Source: Hyphomicrobiales bacterium | GTDB taxonomy: Bacteria > Pseudomonadota > Alphaproteobacteria > Rhizobiales > Beijerinckiaceae | DNA: 64,000 nucleotides | NCBI GenBank assembly: GCA_003963405.1 | Contig: RXIY01000016.1 | Span: forward strand, 1-64,000 | Reading direction: 5' to 3' | Shown: positions 44,462 to 49,309 of the stretch, piece by piece | How the letters are laid out: each line of letters begins with the position of its first letter | How positions within the stretch are numbered: position 1 is the stretch's first letter | The notes under the pieces: model-generated | What the model was told of the DNA's origin: nothing | Databases searched by the model: none | What the model saw: the letters and a program-made list of their open reading frames with translations, nothing else | Program-made: the position numbers and the translations under genes

Positions 44462-45265
44462 CTACCCCGCGAGCAGCTTCACCGCCGCCTCGTGTAGCGC
44501 CCGATCTCCCGCCGCGACGATGGCGCCGCCATCCGAGGGGTCGCCGCCGTCCCAGGTGGTGACGACGCCGCCCGCGCCTTCGACGATCGGGATCAGCGCA
44601 AAAATATCGTATTTGTTGATGCCGGATTCGATCACGAGATCGACATGGCCGGCTGCGAGCGCGCAATAGGCGTAGCAGTCTCCTCCATAGCGCGACAGCC
44701 GGACTTTCTCTTCGACGCGGTGGAAGGCGTCGCGTCGCTCGGGCTCGATCAACAACGGCGAAGTCGTCATCAGGGTCGCCTGCGCCAGCCGGGGGCAAGG
44801 CCGCGTGACCAGCTTGCGACGCTCCTCGCCGCCCCTGCCGTGACGCGCCGGCCCGCGCCAGAAGGCGGCCTCGCCGTCGCCATGGAAACGCTCGCGCGTG
44901 AAGGGCTGGTTCATCATCCCGTAACAGGGCCGGCCGTGATGCGAGAGACCGATCAGCGTGCCCCAGGTCGGAAAGCCGGAGATGAAGCTTTTCGTGCCGT
45001 CGATGGGGTCGAGCACCCAGACATATTCGGCCTGTTCGTCGCGGGCGGCGAATTCCTCGCCGATGATTCCATGGCTCGGAAAGGTGCGTTCGATCAGGCG
45101 GCGCATGGCGAGCTCCGCCGCGCGATCGGCCTCGGTCACCGGATCGAAGGCGCCGCCATGCGCCTTGTCGTCTGCGGCGATGGCGGTGCGAAAAAAGGGC
45201 AGGATGGCGTCGCCCGAAACCTCGGCCAGCTCCTCGACGAATTTTTCGAAATCGACGACGGTCAT
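44462..45265 (-). CDS. hisN: Histidinol-phosphatase (inositol monophosphatase family)
   Basis: The protein has the IMPase fold: GEEFAARDEQAEYVWVLD and PIDGTKSFISGFPTWGTLIG give the DPIDGT metal-binding motif, and ESGINKYDIFALIPIVEGAG supplies the second motif. The FISGFPTWGTLIGL signature is typical of HisN, the histidine pathway phosphatase used by Rhizobiales and Actinobacteria. Length is 267 residues. The ATG at 45263-45265 is used; frame to 45610 is an overlap. Its neighbour N-formylglutamate amidohydrolase 29 bases upstream is a common pairing. Confidence 0.88.
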   Translation of the reverse strand: MTVVDFEKFVEELAEVSGDAILPFFRTAIAADDKAHGGAFDPVTEADRAAELAMRRLIERTFPSHGIIGEEFAARDEQAEYVWVLDPIDGTKSFISGFPTWGTLIGLSHHGRPCYGMMNQPFTRERFHGDGEAAFWRGPARHGRGGEERRKLVTRPCPRLAQATLMTTSPLLIEPERRDAFHRVEEKVRLSRYGGDCYAYCALAAGHVDLVIESGINKYDIFALIPIVEGAGGVVTTWDGGDPSDGGAIVAAGDRALHEAAVKLLAG

Positions 45266-45293
45266 TCCTGCTCCAGCGCCGGAAAGCCGCTGA

Positions 45294-46214
45294 TTATTCG
45301 GCGGCCATCCGGCGTGGGCCGCCAAAGATCCTGTCAGAGTCCTGAGCCAGGCCCGCGGCCACCTCGGCGAGGTCGGCGGCGATCGCCGCGAAGCGCGGAC
45401 CCTTCTCCAGTGTCGCTTCGTCCATGTAAAGACCGCGTGAAACTTCGATCTGAATCGCGTGCCATCCGGCCGCCGGGCGCCCGAAATGCTCGGTGATGAA
45501 CCCGCCCGCATAGGGCCTGTTGCGCTGAATCTGGTGGCCGCGCGCGCGCAGCCGCTCCTCGACTCCCTCGACCAGCCCCGGCGCCGCGCTCGCCCCATAG
45601 CGATCGCCAATGACGAAATCGAGACGGCGCTTGTCGCCGCGCCCGGCGAGCGACGGCTCGCGCGCGCTGCTCGACGGCATGGAGTGGCAATCGACCAGAA
45701 TGGCGACGCCGAACCGCTCCTGCGCGCGCTCCATCAGGCCGCGCAGCATGGCGTGATAGGGCTTGTAGAGCGCCTCGATCCGCCTCAGCGCCTCGTCGAT
45801 GGGGATGCGCCCCGCGTAGATTTCCCGCGCGTCCGCCACCACGCGGGGGATGGTTCCGAGCCCGGCGGCGACGCGCAGCGACCGCGTATTGGCGAATTCC
45901 GGCAGCCGGCCCTCGAAAAGCTTCGGATCGAGTTCATAGGGCTCGCGATTGAGATCGAGATAGGCGCGCGGGAAATGCGCGCGCAACAGGGGCGCGCCGA
46001 CCTCCCCGGCCGAGGCGAACAATTCGTCGACATAGGCGTCTTCGGAGCGGCGCAGCGCAGCCGCGTCGAGACGCGCCGCCGCGAGGAACCGCGCGGGATA
46101 GACCCGGCCCGAATGCGGCGATGAGAAGACGAGCGGCGATGTGAGCTCGCGCGGCTCGAGCACCTCGGACGGGGGGTCAAAGTCACCCTCGATTGGCGCG
46201 CCGTTTTCCTGCAT
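45294..46214 (-). CDS. N-formylglutamate amidohydrolase
   Basis: A zinc-dependent amidohydrolase of the HutG family. Motifs FSSPHSGRVYPARFL, LLRAHFPRAYLDLNREPYEL and AILVDCHSMPSS give the metal ligands. It releases formate and glutamate from N-formylglutamate, but in Rhizobiales lacking other hut genes nearby it may act on other N-formyl amino acids. It is 306 residues. It is upstream of hisN on the same strand. Confidence 0.92.
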   Translation of the reverse strand: MQENGAPIEGDFDPPSEVLEPRELTSPLVFSSPHSGRVYPARFLAAARLDAAALRRSEDAYVDELFASAGEVGAPLLRAHFPRAYLDLNREPYELDPKLFEGRLPEFANTRSLRVAAGLGTIPRVVADAREIYAGRIPIDEALRRIEALYKPYHAMLRGLMERAQERFGVAILVDCHSMPSSSAREPSLAGRGDKRRLDFVIGDRYGASAAPGLVEGVEERLRARGHQIQRNRPYAGGFITEHFGRPAAGWHAIQIEVSRGLYMDEATLEKGPRFAAIAADLAEVAAGLAQDSDRIFGGPRRMAAE

Positions 46215-46408: not shown

Positions 46409-46783
46409 ATGAACGAACGGATGACGGCGAAGATCCTGCTGGCGGAAGACGACAATGACATGCGTCGCTTCCTGGTCAAGGCTTTGCAGCAGGCCGGCTT
46501 TTCCGTAACGTCCTTTGACAACGGCCTGTCGGCCTACGACCAGCTGCGCGTCGAACCCTTCGAGCTGCTGCTGACCGACATCGTCATGCCGGAGATGGAC
46601 GGGATAGAGCTGGCGCGCCGCGCCACCGAGCTCGATCCCGACATAAAGGTGATGTTCATCACCGGCTTCGCCGCCGTCGCGCTCAATCCCGACAACCAGG
46701 CGCCGCGGCAGGCCAAGATTCTCTCCAAACCCTTCCATCTGCGCGACCTCGTGAGCGAGGTTCAGCGCATGCTCGCCGCCTGA
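46409..46783 (+). CDS. cpdR: CpdR response regulator (single-domain)
   Basis: A 124-residue receiver-only protein: ILLAEDDNDMRRFLVKALQQ, phospho-acceptor Asp in LLTDIVMPEMDGIELARRAT, and VMFITGFAAVALNPDNQAP. The tail KILSKPFHLRDLVSEVQRML is typical of CpdR. In Caulobacter unphosphorylated CpdR directs ClpXP to the pole and promotes CtrA degradation. The protein lies in the same window as sciP and rcdA. A second ATG at 46421 is in frame and may be the true start. Confidence 0.93.
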   Translation: MNERMTAKILLAEDDNDMRRFLVKALQQAGFSVTSFDNGLSAYDQLRVEPFELLLTDIVMPEMDGIELARRATELDPDIKVMFITGFAAVALNPDNQAPRQAKILSKPFHLRDLVSEVQRMLAA

Positions 46784-46924
46784 GCCCGCGCGAAGCCGGT
46801 CGGCCTTGCCGAATGGGAAGCATTGCGCTATGAGCGCAGCCAAATCGTCAATTCGGCTGGCCGCCCCGCGCCAAAAGGCGTCACGGGGTTGTGGCCGTTC
46901 AGGATCGCAGGAAGGACGCGTTCG

Positions 46925-47155
46925 ATGAAAAAGGATATCCATCCCGACTATCACACGATCAAGATCGTGATGACCGACGGCTCCGAGTATCTGACGCGCT
47001 CGACCTGGGGCAAGGACGGGGACACGATGAACCTCGACATCGACCCCAAGACGCATCCGGCCTGGACCGGCGGCTCGACCCAGTTGCTCGATCGCGGCGG
47101 CCGACTGTCGCGCTTCAATTCGCGCTTCGGCGGCCTGAGCTTCGGCAAGAAGTAA
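46925..47155 (+). CDS. rpmE: 50S ribosomal protein L31
   Basis: A 76-residue ribosomal protein beginning [20 protein letters not shown]. The zinc-type CxxC cysteines of some L31 proteins are absent, so it is the non-zinc (C-minus) form. The start is fixed by homology; the longer open frame to 46823 is not coding. GGAAGGA precedes it. A strong terminator follows. It probably has its own promoter. Confidence 0.95.
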
Positions 47156-47292: not shown

Positions 47293-47829
47293 TTATTGCG
47301 TAAAGGCGTCCCGGAGCCGCGCCAGCTGCTCCTGAACGGGGCTCGCCGCCGGCGCCAGCTGCGCCGTGGCCGCTTCGGGACCCGTATAGATCAGCTGATC
47401 CAGATGAATGATTCGCGCCTGGAGACGCAGCGAATGCAGCGCAAGCTCGCGCAGACGCTGCGGCAGGCGCTGGAACACCTCTGGCGAGGAAGCCAGTTCC
47501 TGATGCTGGAGCTTGACCCGATGGCGATCGCTCGCCGCCTGCGTCCGCGTCAGTTCGCCCTGGTTGACGGCGCGCTGAAGCAGGAGCCAGGACGCGACCT
47601 GCATCAGCCGGGTGGTCAGGCGCATGCTCTCGGCCGCATAAGCCAGCGCCTCGGCGCGCGGCAGAGCCTTGGCGTCCCCGCGACCGGCGCCGTCGAGATA
47701 GGCGGCCGCCTCCTCGACGAGGCCCATGCCTTCCTTGAACATTGCGCCGAAGGCCTCGGAGCCCGCGAGTTTCTCTACAAAGGAAACGGGTTGGCTCTGC
47801 TCGCCCCGATTATCACTGACACGACCCAT
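47293..47829 (-). CDS. rcdA: RcdA-family (DUF1465) regulator of CtrA degradation
   Basis: A helical protein of 178 residues. KLAGSEAFGAMFKEGMGLVE and SMRLTTRLMQVASWLLLQRA are the DUF1465 signature blocks. Caulobacter RcdA is an adaptor that, with CpdR and PopA, delivers CtrA to ClpXP. Family membership is clear; the role here is inferred from it. The ATG at 47827-47829 is chosen, although the frame runs to 47886. A CtrA-like box lies 85 bases upstream, and cpdR is only about 500 bases away on the other strand. Confidence 0.88.
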   Translation of the reverse strand: MGRVSDNRGEQSQPVSFVEKLAGSEAFGAMFKEGMGLVEEAAAYLDGAGRGDAKALPRAEALAYAAESMRLTTRLMQVASWLLLQRAVNQGELTRTQAASDRHRVKLQHQELASSPEVFQRLPQRLRELALHSLRLQARIIHLDQLIYTGPEAATAQLAPAASPVQEQLARLRDAFTQ

Positions 47830-47913
47830 GCCACGCTCACGCTTGCTGCCGGGGCTGACGCCCCCCGAACTCGATAGAGGGGACATTAGCGCACGTCGGC
47901 CGGGCGCGCTTCA

Positions 47914-47928
47914 TTAGCTCTCTTTTAA
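47914..47928. promoter_or_regulatory. CtrA-type box upstream of rcdA
   Basis: TTAG-CTCTCTT-TTAA, followed by a second TTAACC (TTAACCTTAACC at 47925-47936). It matches TTAA-N7-TTAA with one deviation. It is about 85 bases before the rcdA start. In the minus direction it reads TTAA-N7-CTAA, so rcdA could be a CtrA target. Confidence 0.55.
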
Positions 47929-47954
47929 CCTTAACCGCGGAAGGGTTTTGAACA

Positions 47955-48040
47955 CAAAAAAAGAGCCGCAAACGCGGCTCTCGAGGCGTGACAGGGAGGC
48001 ATCAAGGACGAGTGGAGAAGAAGAGCCACTCGGGACATAC
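47955..48040 (-). ncRNA. Candidate small RNA, MmgR/suhB-motif-like
   Basis: On the minus strand, a stem CGAGTGG/CCACTCG (48009-48032) with the pyrimidine loop CUCUUCUUCU is followed by an unpaired CCUCCCU and then a terminator: AGAGCCGC-GTTT-GCGGCTCT plus seven U (47955-47981). It sits about 480 bases from suhB on the other strand. The suhB RNA motif (MmgR, alpha-r8) of alphaproteobacteria, as I recall it, has a conserved CCUCCCU and a strong terminator and lies opposite suhB. A CtrA box and a -10-like AATATC (48046-48051 on the plus strand) lie just upstream. The start near 48040 is estimated. Confidence 0.55.
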
Positions 48041-48045
48041 GCTGT

Positions 48046-48086
48046 AATATCGCCAAGTTAGGACTGGTTGGTTAAAGAATCGTTAA
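48046..48086 (-). promoter_or_regulatory. CtrA-type promoter of the candidate small RNA
   Basis: TTAA-AGAATCG-TTAAC at 48072-48086 is a perfect CtrA pattern. Read toward the small RNA it is followed by ...AACTTGGC and GATATT at 48046-48051, placing a -10-like element 18 bases after the box. The same AACTTGGC(A/G)ATAT follows the box at 48418-48432 in the same spacing within one base. Confidence 0.6.
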
Positions 48087-48120
48087 CGCCCTGCCCGGCA
48101 TGCGCCAGACAAAAGCCGCC

Positions 48121-48372
48121 TCAGACCTTCGGCTGAAAGGCGGCAACCGAACCGCTTGCCGGAAGCCTCTCGGGGCGAGGGAGTTGGGATAGTCCGAGAC
48201 AGAGCAGAACGAGGAGCGCCGTGCGGATCAGTTGCCCGCCATCGACGCGACAGAACCTCGGACGGGCCGGCGCGGGACGCTGGGCCTGGATCTTTTCCCG
48301 CGCGCGCACGGGATTTTGAGGAGCGGACGGCCTTACCGCCGCCGCGCGATAGCCGAGCTCGATATGCGCCAT
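48121..48372 (-). CDS. Small basic membrane protein, unknown family
   Basis: An 83-residue protein with a basic N-terminal half (MAHIELGYRAAAVRPSAPQN) and one hydrophobic segment (LIRTALLVLLCLGLSQL) near residues 49-65. No family recognised. It is supported by GGAG eight bases before the ATG, by a CtrA-type box 46 bases before it and by a short predicted leader. Its only downstream terminator is the one also used by the candidate RNA. Confidence 0.55.
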   Translation of the reverse strand: MAHIELGYRAAAVRPSAPQNPVRAREKIQAQRPAPARPRFCRVDGGQLIRTALLVLLCLGLSQLPRPERLPASGSVAAFQPKV

Positions 48373-48390
48373 GACTGGCTCTCCGAAACC

Positions 48391-48432
48391 GATATTGCCA
48401 AGTTTCGACTCGATTGCTTAATTTTGGATTAA
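48391..48432 (-). promoter_or_regulatory. CtrA-type box and -10-like element of the small membrane protein gene
   Basis: TTAA-TTTTGGA-TTAACC (48418-48432) is a perfect CtrA pattern. Toward the 48121-48372 gene it is followed by AACTTGGC and AATATC (48391-48396 on the plus strand) at the same spacing as at the candidate RNA. It is 86 bases before suhB, so the box could also act divergently. Confidence 0.6.
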
Positions 48433-48517: not shown

Positions 48518-49309
48518 ATGATTCGTTCCGCGTTGATGAATGTGATGACCGCCGCCGCGATCAAGGCGGGCCGCGGCCTCAAGCGTGACTTCGGGGAGGT
48601 CGAGAATCTTCAGGTCTCGGTCAAAGGCCCCGGCGATTTCGTCACCGCCGCCGACAAGCGCGCCGAAAAGACGCTGTTCGAGGAGTTATCCAAGGCGCGG
48701 CCTGGCTACAGCTTCCGGCTCGAGGAAAGCGGCTTTATAGAGGGGTCGGACAAGAGCCACACCTGGCATATCGACCCGCTCGACGGCACCTCGAACTTCC
48801 TGCACGGCTTGCCGGTCTTTGGCGTCTCCATTGCGCTGGAGCGGGAGGGACAGCTTGTCGCCGGCCTCGTCTATAATCCTGCGACCGACGAGATGTTTGT
48901 CGCGGAAAAAGGCCAGGGCGCCTATTTCAACAACCGTCGCATGCGCGTCGCCGCCCGCCGCTCGCTGGCGGAATCGATGGTGGCCTGCGGCATCCCGCCG
49001 CTCGCGCGCGTCCGCGATCATGAGTCCTTCAAGCGCGAGCTGGCCGCCGGCATGGCGAAGATCGGCAATATCCGCCGCATGGGCGCCGCCGCCCTGGACC
49101 TCGCCTTCGTCGCCTGCGGGCGCTTCGATGGCTATTGGGAGCGTGGGATCAACAGTTGGGACGTCGCGGCGGGCATCGTGCTGGTGCGCGAGGCCGGCGG
49201 CTTCGTCACCGATCTTTCCGGCGGCGGCGACATGCTCGCCAAGGGCGAGATCTGCGCGGGCAACGAGGCAATCCACCGCCTGCTTCTCGACGTCATAAGG
49301 AAGGCCTGA
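48518..49309 (+). CDS. suhB: Inositol monophosphatase SuhB
   Basis: A 263-residue IMPase-family phosphatase. SVKGPGDFVTAADKRAE, EESGFIEGSDKSHTWHIDPL followed by DGTSNFLHGLP give the metal-binding motifs and INSWDVAAGIVLVREAGG the second signature. It hydrolyses inositol-1-phosphate; SuhB also binds RNA polymerase in E. coli in rRNA transcription. The ATG at 48518 begins the conserved region. A GNAT gene follows in frame-close order, and the candidate sRNA lies opposite. Confidence 0.95.
   Translation: MIRSALMNVMTAAAIKAGRGLKRDFGEVENLQVSVKGPGDFVTAADKRAEKTLFEELSKARPGYSFRLEESGFIEGSDKSHTWHIDPLDGTSNFLHGLPVFGVSIALEREGQLVAGLVYNPATDEMFVAEKGQGAYFNNRRMRVAARRSLAESMVACGIPPLARVRDHESFKRELAAGMAKIGNIRRMGAAALDLAFVACGRFDGYWERGINSWDVAAGIVLVREAGGFVTDLSGGGDMLAKGEICAGNEAIHRLLLDVIRKA

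Follow-up and report, generated by a model that had tools for sequence, protein, structure and literature searches.

CtrA is a cell-cycle regulator, and RcdA helps to destroy it. The described small RNA closest to the one considered here is BjrC1505 (Rfam family RF02356), which is attributed to Madhugiri et al. 2012 and is reportedly expressed in Bradyrhizobium, with lower amounts in nodules. Our literature search, which met BjrC1505 only in a list and did not extend to its founding description, found no link of BjrC1505/RF02356 to CtrA or rcdA. On the rcdA region itself, a CtrA ChIP-Seq study in S. meliloti reports binding in the rcdA promoter region, with rcdA transcription unchanged on CtrA depletion (PMC4433202). 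For three agrobacterial lineages, another paper describes more than one rcdA start site, together with possible upstream CtrA sites that lie further from the gene than in Caulobacter (PMC10469942). At the locus described here we consider it likely, judging from sequence comparison, that CtrA activates an independent, trans-acting, Shine-Dalgarno-masking small RNA (sRNA) of about 90 nt belonging to the BjrC1505 family, and that a second CtrA box serves a genus-limited membrane protein.

How strong is the signature of CtrA at this locus? Exact TTAA-N7-TTAA boxes occur twice in the window (the whole 64-kb stretch of DNA analyzed), exactly where the first-pass annotation had placed them, and chance is excluded by 100 dinucleotide shuffles, from which 0.00 were expected. 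With one mismatch allowed there are seven, against 1.04 expected, and these include the third, imperfect box that had been noted before rcdA (47914-47928), which is present as TTAAGGTTAA-N7-YTA in 36 of the 37 same-genus rcdA loci. Both exact boxes had been said to point toward lower coordinates; because TTAA-N7-TTAA is identical on both strands, the box alone gives no strand, and the direction is set by what follows it. The two promoters had also been called near-identical on account of a shared -10-like AACTTGGC(A/G)ATAT. A box followed within 8-18 nt by AACTTGGC is found at these two places only in the 4.64-Mb assembly, and the full match is retained in a genome of the same species (G670, L273). 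In the nearest other species to be aligned, G021, the boxes are retained and the positions of the shared sequence hold AGCTTGACGTTG and CCTTAACAATAA. Near-identity is therefore true of the host species only: aligned across relatives, the boxes persist, and the -10-like sequence is unsupported as an element conserved past the species. CtrA is encoded in all 30 genomes tested, including that of the host (G000:C100:67202-67873; 421 bits, cut-off 350).

Table 1. Features of the rcdA region in the window, with the evidence for each.
Feature	Position	Strand	Basis
cpdR	46409..46783	+	NF046022, 197 bits, cut-off 180
rpmE (ribosomal protein L31), convergent with rcdA	46862..47155	+	PF01197
rcdA, protease adaptor RcdA	47293..47886	-	NF051867, 214 bits; DUF1465
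rcdA -10-like GCGCTAAT	47885..47892	-	genus sequences listed; inference
rcdA promoter box TTAAGGTTAA-N7-CTAA (third box, 47914-47928)	47914..47934	-	one-mismatch scan; 36/37 genus loci
Small-RNA intrinsic terminator, AGAGCCGC AAAC GCGGCTCT + T7	47956..47981	-	sequence, fold, consensus pairs
Small RNA, BjrC1505 (RF02356) orthologue, ~90 nt	47957..48051	-	Rfam match and R1 model
Conserved element TTGATGCCTCCCTGTCA; its CCUCCC loop is complementary to Shine-Dalgarno sequences	47989..48005	-	alignment; consensus helices 2 and 3
Hairpin CGAGTGG..CCACTCG, pyrimidine-rich loop	48009..48032	-	fold; 3/5 pairs changed on both sides
Candidate -10 CCTAACT, weak	48056..48062	-	aligned with order-wide TTATAACT-like stretch; inference
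Predicted CtrA box of small RNA, TTAACGATTCTTTAA on minus strand	48072..48086	-	shuffle test; order-wide box count
83-aa protein of a genus-limited family, with a single hydrophobic helix at the C-terminus (GQLIRTALLVLLCLGLSQLP, by eye)	48121..48372	-	homologue searches
Predicted CtrA box of small membrane-protein gene, TTAATCCAAAATTAA	48418..48432	-	shuffle test; alignment of relatives
suhB-type inositol monophosphatase, divergent neighbor	48518..49309	+	PF00459

What would the first box transcribe? The first-pass annotation had it driving an RNA with a strong terminator, and such a terminator is indeed there: a perfect 8-bp hairpin followed by seven T, within a 96-nt stretch of the RNA strand that folds at -29.5 kcal/mol (z = -4.1). 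Transcription itself is predicted, with a 5' end that would lie near 48051-48046. The candidate RNA proved to be a catalogued family, which the annotation had missed, and to be linked to rcdA in most of the loci examined across the order. An Rfam search of the window at curated cut-offs reported no family; a permissive search of 1 kb matched RF02356 at 47956-48093 (49.2 bits, E 5e-8), 0.8 bit short of the 50 bits that formal membership takes. Six other same-genus loci were scanned, and five scored above the cut-off at the same position (L024, 53.0 bits; L031, 54.0; L034, 61.5; L042, 56.5; L048, 55.5), the sixth, L025, staying under it at 29.7 bits. Because the window copy reaches 49.2 bits against a cut-off of 50 and these same-genus loci 53.0-61.5, we call it an orthologue, not a formal Rfam match. 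It has the BjrC1505 layout, with a GAGUGG/CCACUC hairpin, the GCCUCCCUG element and a GC-rich terminator in that order, and it occupies the same genomic place, 5' of rcdA. An RNA model built in this analysis (R1), whose training set overlaps the loci later scanned, scores 67.6 bits on L023:2164-2256 (window 47959-48051), L023 itself being part of that training set. Other identities were rejected: the C-rich MmgR/alpha-r8 (RF00519) scored 14.7 bits (E 4.2) against a cut-off of 41, and the Rfam matches to SorY and Twister-sister were likewise under cut-off. Elsewhere in the host there is a second RF02356 match (G000:C76:9662-9767; 21.4 bits, E 0.18), which is probably due to chance.

An alignment of 51 RNAs resolves a variable 5' hairpin, the GAGUGG/CCACUC hairpin, the segment UUGAY-GCCUCCCU-GUYAA with CCUCCC in its loop, and the terminator. 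Most of GCCTCCCTG is invariant across the 51 sequences, one C being kept at 90% or more, and the loop of the GCCUCCCUG hairpin is near-invariant in the family. Over 16 consensus pairs, 98.4% of cells can pair and both partners vary in 6 of the pairs, a level reached by 0 of 500 shuffles; slid controls fall to 33-55% paired. The structure counted here and R1 both draw on many of these sequences, and some alignment rows are without a true 5' end. In single-sequence minimum-energy folds, the CCUCCC hairpin formed in L117 and not in the window. A per-locus stem test of the 5' hairpin gave 99 of 121, against 85.9 in shuffles; this test is crude and the result barely above shuffles, so we build no claim on that hairpin. 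The CCUCCC loop resembles an anti-Shine-Dalgarno sequence. Loops of this kind mask ribosome-binding sites, and the one here could mask Shine-Dalgarno sequences in the same manner.

How widespread is the RNA, and how closely does it keep to rcdA? Of the 347 genomes sampled across the order, RF02356 was found at E <= 0.001 in 299, which cover 112 of 129 genera, and scored above cut-off in 261; at the same E-value none of 14 controls had it. At E <= 1, weak matches appeared in 7 of the 14 controls, none above cut-off. A class-wide sample yielded it in 32 of 289 genomes, three of which were the host genome and two of the host's family. For synteny we examined 69 loci, representing 25 families, from among the best matches that the order search listed (39 of them picked for variety). 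In all 69, rcdA lies 3' of the RNA on the same strand, with 81-489 bp from the RNA end to the start of the rcdA match (one exception, 1402 bp), and rpmE follows past rcdA in the opposite orientation in 58. Starting instead from rcdA, R1 (E <= 0.001) finds the RNA at 27 of 37 same-genus and 18 of 22 other order loci. It finds none at the remaining 4 order loci and 10 same-genus loci, the latter including L039, which a contig end truncates; L036, close to the end of its contig, has a weak R1 score of 28.8 bits. The order-wide linkage has exceptions. G043 appears to carry the two on different contigs, with rcdA on C133 and a near-exact 17-mer from the RNA element on C13. No rcdA was found within 1.5 kb of the RNA in 4 of 10 class-sample loci; one of the ten, L165, comes from the window's own family and has rcdA.

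Several individual loci deserve separate mention. The four class-sample loci with no rcdA found within 1.5 kb (L162-L164 and L166) share the TTTGACGCCTCCCTGTT element and have an exact box. One genome with 6% contamination (G060) has two RF02356 copies (L082, G060:C439; L065, G060:C138), one beside rcdA and the other on a contig without an rcdA match in the stretch examined. Four small assemblies of the same genus (L055-L058, from G020, G027, G015 and G008; 1.4-2.2 Mb, 66-98% complete) keep the small-protein ORF, as seen in an iterated search, and the rcdA box, with no recognizable RNA.

Does the box travel with the RNA? Among 123 distinct sequences, 120 have an upstream box that deviates from TTAA-N7-TTAA at no more than one position, as against 13.7 expected from shuffles; the best box has no mismatch in 59, one in 61, two in 2 and three in 1. 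Since the sequences are related, these occurrences are not independent events, and the box counted is the best match within a 50-nt upstream stretch, a choice that favors half-sites. The rows come from 145 loci, less 20 whose RNA the pattern did not recognize and L036, which is cut short, leaving 124 (123 distinct). Among loci reached from rcdA with a recognized RNA, such a box is present in 26 of 26 from the genus and 17 of 19 from elsewhere in the order, the 19 including two Sinorhizobium records and one Shinella record. Half-site positions in these order loci carry 1.4-1.7 bits and spacer positions 0.1-0.8, a contrast partly favored by the best-match picking. The loci chosen through Rfam all have the box (69 of 69), a count that is biased because the RF02356 model itself contains it: the first ~22 model positions are a CtrA-like box (window 48072-48093). 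For that reason the model appears to include promoter DNA, and its 5' boundary is probably wrong. The box of the small RNA is thus a conserved TTAA-N7-TTAA in promoter position, as looked for in the CtrA regulon, and CtrA control of the RNA is strongly predicted.

Copies in the Rhizobiaceae are diverged. In S. meliloti Ak57 (L168, a 3.7-Mb record filed as pSymB), a diverged RNA copy with an exact box lies 5' of rcdA, in the order DUF1192 gene, exact box TTAACCGCAAATTAA, structured RNA (CUCCCUG, terminator), exact box TTAACCCTTTCTTAA, rcdA and rpmE; this RNA scores 27 bits with Rfam (E 0.24) and 26.7 bits with R1 (E 5e-5), and its fold has z = -3.9. The copies in Shinella and Sinorhizobium sp. 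K101 are like it. In S. meliloti and Shinella the conserved element has shrunk to CUCCCUG. Sinorhizobium and Shinella copies score 27-32 bits with RF02356, which suggests that the Rfam model, besides including promoter DNA, places Rhizobiaceae copies under its cut-off. Methylobacterium bullatum scores 50.5 bits, with the CCUCCC run interrupted. A distal CtrA promoter serving the RNA would reconcile the S. meliloti ChIP result with the agrobacterial start sites (Agrobacterium being compared by description), and so offers a testable reason both for CtrA occupancy at S. meliloti rcdA without a response of rcdA and for the extra agrobacterial start sites.

Could the transcript instead be a by-product of rcdA expression, the distal box being a second CtrA site for rcdA and the terminated RNA an attenuated long rcdA leader? 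Within the genus, rcdA owns a conserved box that lies past the small-RNA terminator, followed in most of the genus loci listed by a GCGYTA-like -10; moreover, the RNA body is strongly conserved, CCUCCC element included, and the RNA is kept in the four class-sample loci where rcdA was not found within 1.5 kb. These points make the by-product explanation quite unlikely to our minds, despite the RNA lying on the rcdA strand immediately upstream and despite the several start sites upstream of agrobacterial rcdA being treated as rcdA's own in published work (PMC10469942). An independent RNA, terminated before a separate rcdA promoter, is the reading we retain. Where rcdA itself begins is a related matter: the first ATG of its ORF coincides with the rcdA -10/start region (47829-47886), and many relatives align with the product only from residue 20 onward, although in the nearest the homology sets in at residue 5, so translation may in fact start at the ATG at 47829. 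The identities of RcdA and CpdR, which the first-pass annotation had named, agree with NCBIfam equivalogs. Two inositol-monophosphatase-like genes about 3 kb apart, at 44462-45610 (-), assigned by eye from its translation, and 48518-49309 (+), flank the cpdR-rpmE-rcdA cluster.

The second box had been assigned to an 83-residue membrane protein, and the ORF is real, with relatives in the genus and a single pass judged by eye. The protein has no Pfam or NCBIfam match, and its relatives were not found in a search of the genome contig set. When the ORFs upstream of rcdA were searched directly, nine clear relatives including itself (E <= 7e-8) and four weak ones came up, and iteration extended this to 15 of the 37 genus loci, with one further borderline case; a whole-genome protein search placed it in 11 of 39 genus genomes, including one from the same species. 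Aligned across relatives, the small gene is thus conserved as a protein and genus-limited, with a variable N-terminus and, at the hydrophobic helix, a (G/S)QxxR motif. The box before it is exact in four of nine aligned loci (L023, L024, L025 and L027 among L023-L031), has one mismatch in two (L029 and L030) and is worse, by eye, in L026, L028 and L031. Because L027 and L029 keep the ORF and the box with no recognizable RNA, the small-protein and RNA units can part. This box also lies ~86 bp upstream of suhB and its sequence is without direction, so it might serve that divergent gene, with the 83-aa ORF a minor passenger. We regard this as unlikely, given that the ORF is conserved as a protein and that a box precedes it in the aligned loci, exact or with one mismatch in six of the nine and worse in three. 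On our preferred assignment, this box makes the 83-aa membrane protein a new candidate target of CtrA.

Which mRNAs might the small RNA regulate? The first-pass annotation saw the cluster as a feedback locus including an RNA; in concrete terms, the RNA would pair with rcdA or ctrA mRNA (or dnaA, gcrA) and tune CtrA turnover. We compared pairing of the RNA linker/loop segment with mRNA leaders against dinucleotide shuffles, using the duplex energies of this segment alone. Mean z was -0.33 for rcdA leaders (120 loci, four loci without rcdA having been dropped; 5.8% at p<0.05), +0.15 for dnaA (25 genomes, after 5 of 30 were dropped, four starting at a contig end and one fragmented), -0.35 for gcrA (30) and +0.33 for ctrA (30). 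Since predicted pairing is at chance level on average, the feedback reading is unsupported, and we judge it improbable even though the RNA adjoins rcdA, isolated good duplexes exist (e.g., with G314 dnaA, CAGGGAGGCGGG before the ATG) and similar rcdA-leader pairings are seen in related loci of one family (L085-L098). A conserved long-complement target was rejected as well: in a 17-mer search of 110 genomes with at most two mismatches, many exact matches coincided with RF02356 positions, being the RNA gene itself, and an overall inspection of the others showed no recurrent second site. A search of 20 genomes for CAGGGAGGC-N1-11-ATG gave forward counts above the reversed control, as for any Shine-Dalgarno-like motif. 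Among the matches listed for 70 loci scanned for short-complement sites, recurrence between genomes was confined to two pairs, UspA-like (L204/L216) and CinA-like (L175/L211), named by eye and both from G000/G019. These complement and pairing searches, taken together, found no recurrent target of the RNA.

How, then, might the locus work? From the observed sequence, consensus structure, family, box conservation and synteny we infer transcription here, CtrA control and Shine-Dalgarno masking. Phosphorylated CtrA would bind the TTAA-N7-TTAA box (at about -40 to -24) and switch the RNA on; as CtrA turns on its promoter, the RNA should track CtrA activity, with its level peaking when CtrA is active and falling as CtrA is degraded. 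The transcript would stop at its own terminator, short of the separate CtrA-type rcdA promoter. Its CCUCCC loop would pair in trans with Shine-Dalgarno regions rich in purines and thereby repress a set of mRNAs in the CtrA-active phase. In that same phase the second box would yield the genus-limited single-pass membrane protein. Because the RNA, a predicted CtrA site and an rcdA neighbor recur widely in the order, this known RNA probably belongs to the cell-cycle circuit. A widespread sRNA family, for which the literature searched offered no function, thereby gains a likely regulator and a cell-cycle context. A broader proposal, on which we are evenly divided, is that an order-wide CtrA-activated sRNA is a standing component of the Hyphomicrobiales cell cycle, adding a Shine-Dalgarno-masking post-transcriptional arm to each CtrA pulse, and that the CtrA binding in the S. 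meliloti rcdA region is chiefly for the RNA.

Compared with BjrC1505, the window RNA is alike in its hairpins, GACGCCUCCCUG element and terminator, and the Rfam model starts with a CtrA-like box; it differs in falling just under the cut-off, in having GAU for GAC and in a longer loop in the GAGUGG hairpin. CcnA of Caulobacter crescentus resembles it at the promoter, being a non-coding RNA that has a predicted CtrA site and is putatively CtrA-activated (PMC8959179). The comparison is one of promoter function: CcnA acts on ctrA and gcrA mRNAs (PMC8959179), with which the window RNA's predicted pairing is at chance. EcpR1 of S. meliloti is likewise a Rhizobiales-wide trans sRNA in the cell cycle, with dnaA and gcrA as targets; however, its gene lies between divK-pleD and rpmG and not at rcdA, and its promoter is sigma-70-dependent (PMC4414408). 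GspR of S. meliloti is likewise a trans sRNA tied to the CtrA circuit but is restricted to Sinorhizobium, lies between SMc03844 and SMc03845, represses ctrA and lacks any known promoter signature (PMC5928217). MmgR/alpha-r8 is also a short alphaproteobacterial sRNA, with a characteristic 10-mer (PMC12559287), but the window RNA falls far below the RF00519 cut-off. The RNA family and CtrA-linked non-coding RNAs as kinds were thus known already; new, so far as our literature search reached, is that this family is tied to CtrA, by prediction, and to rcdA across the order.
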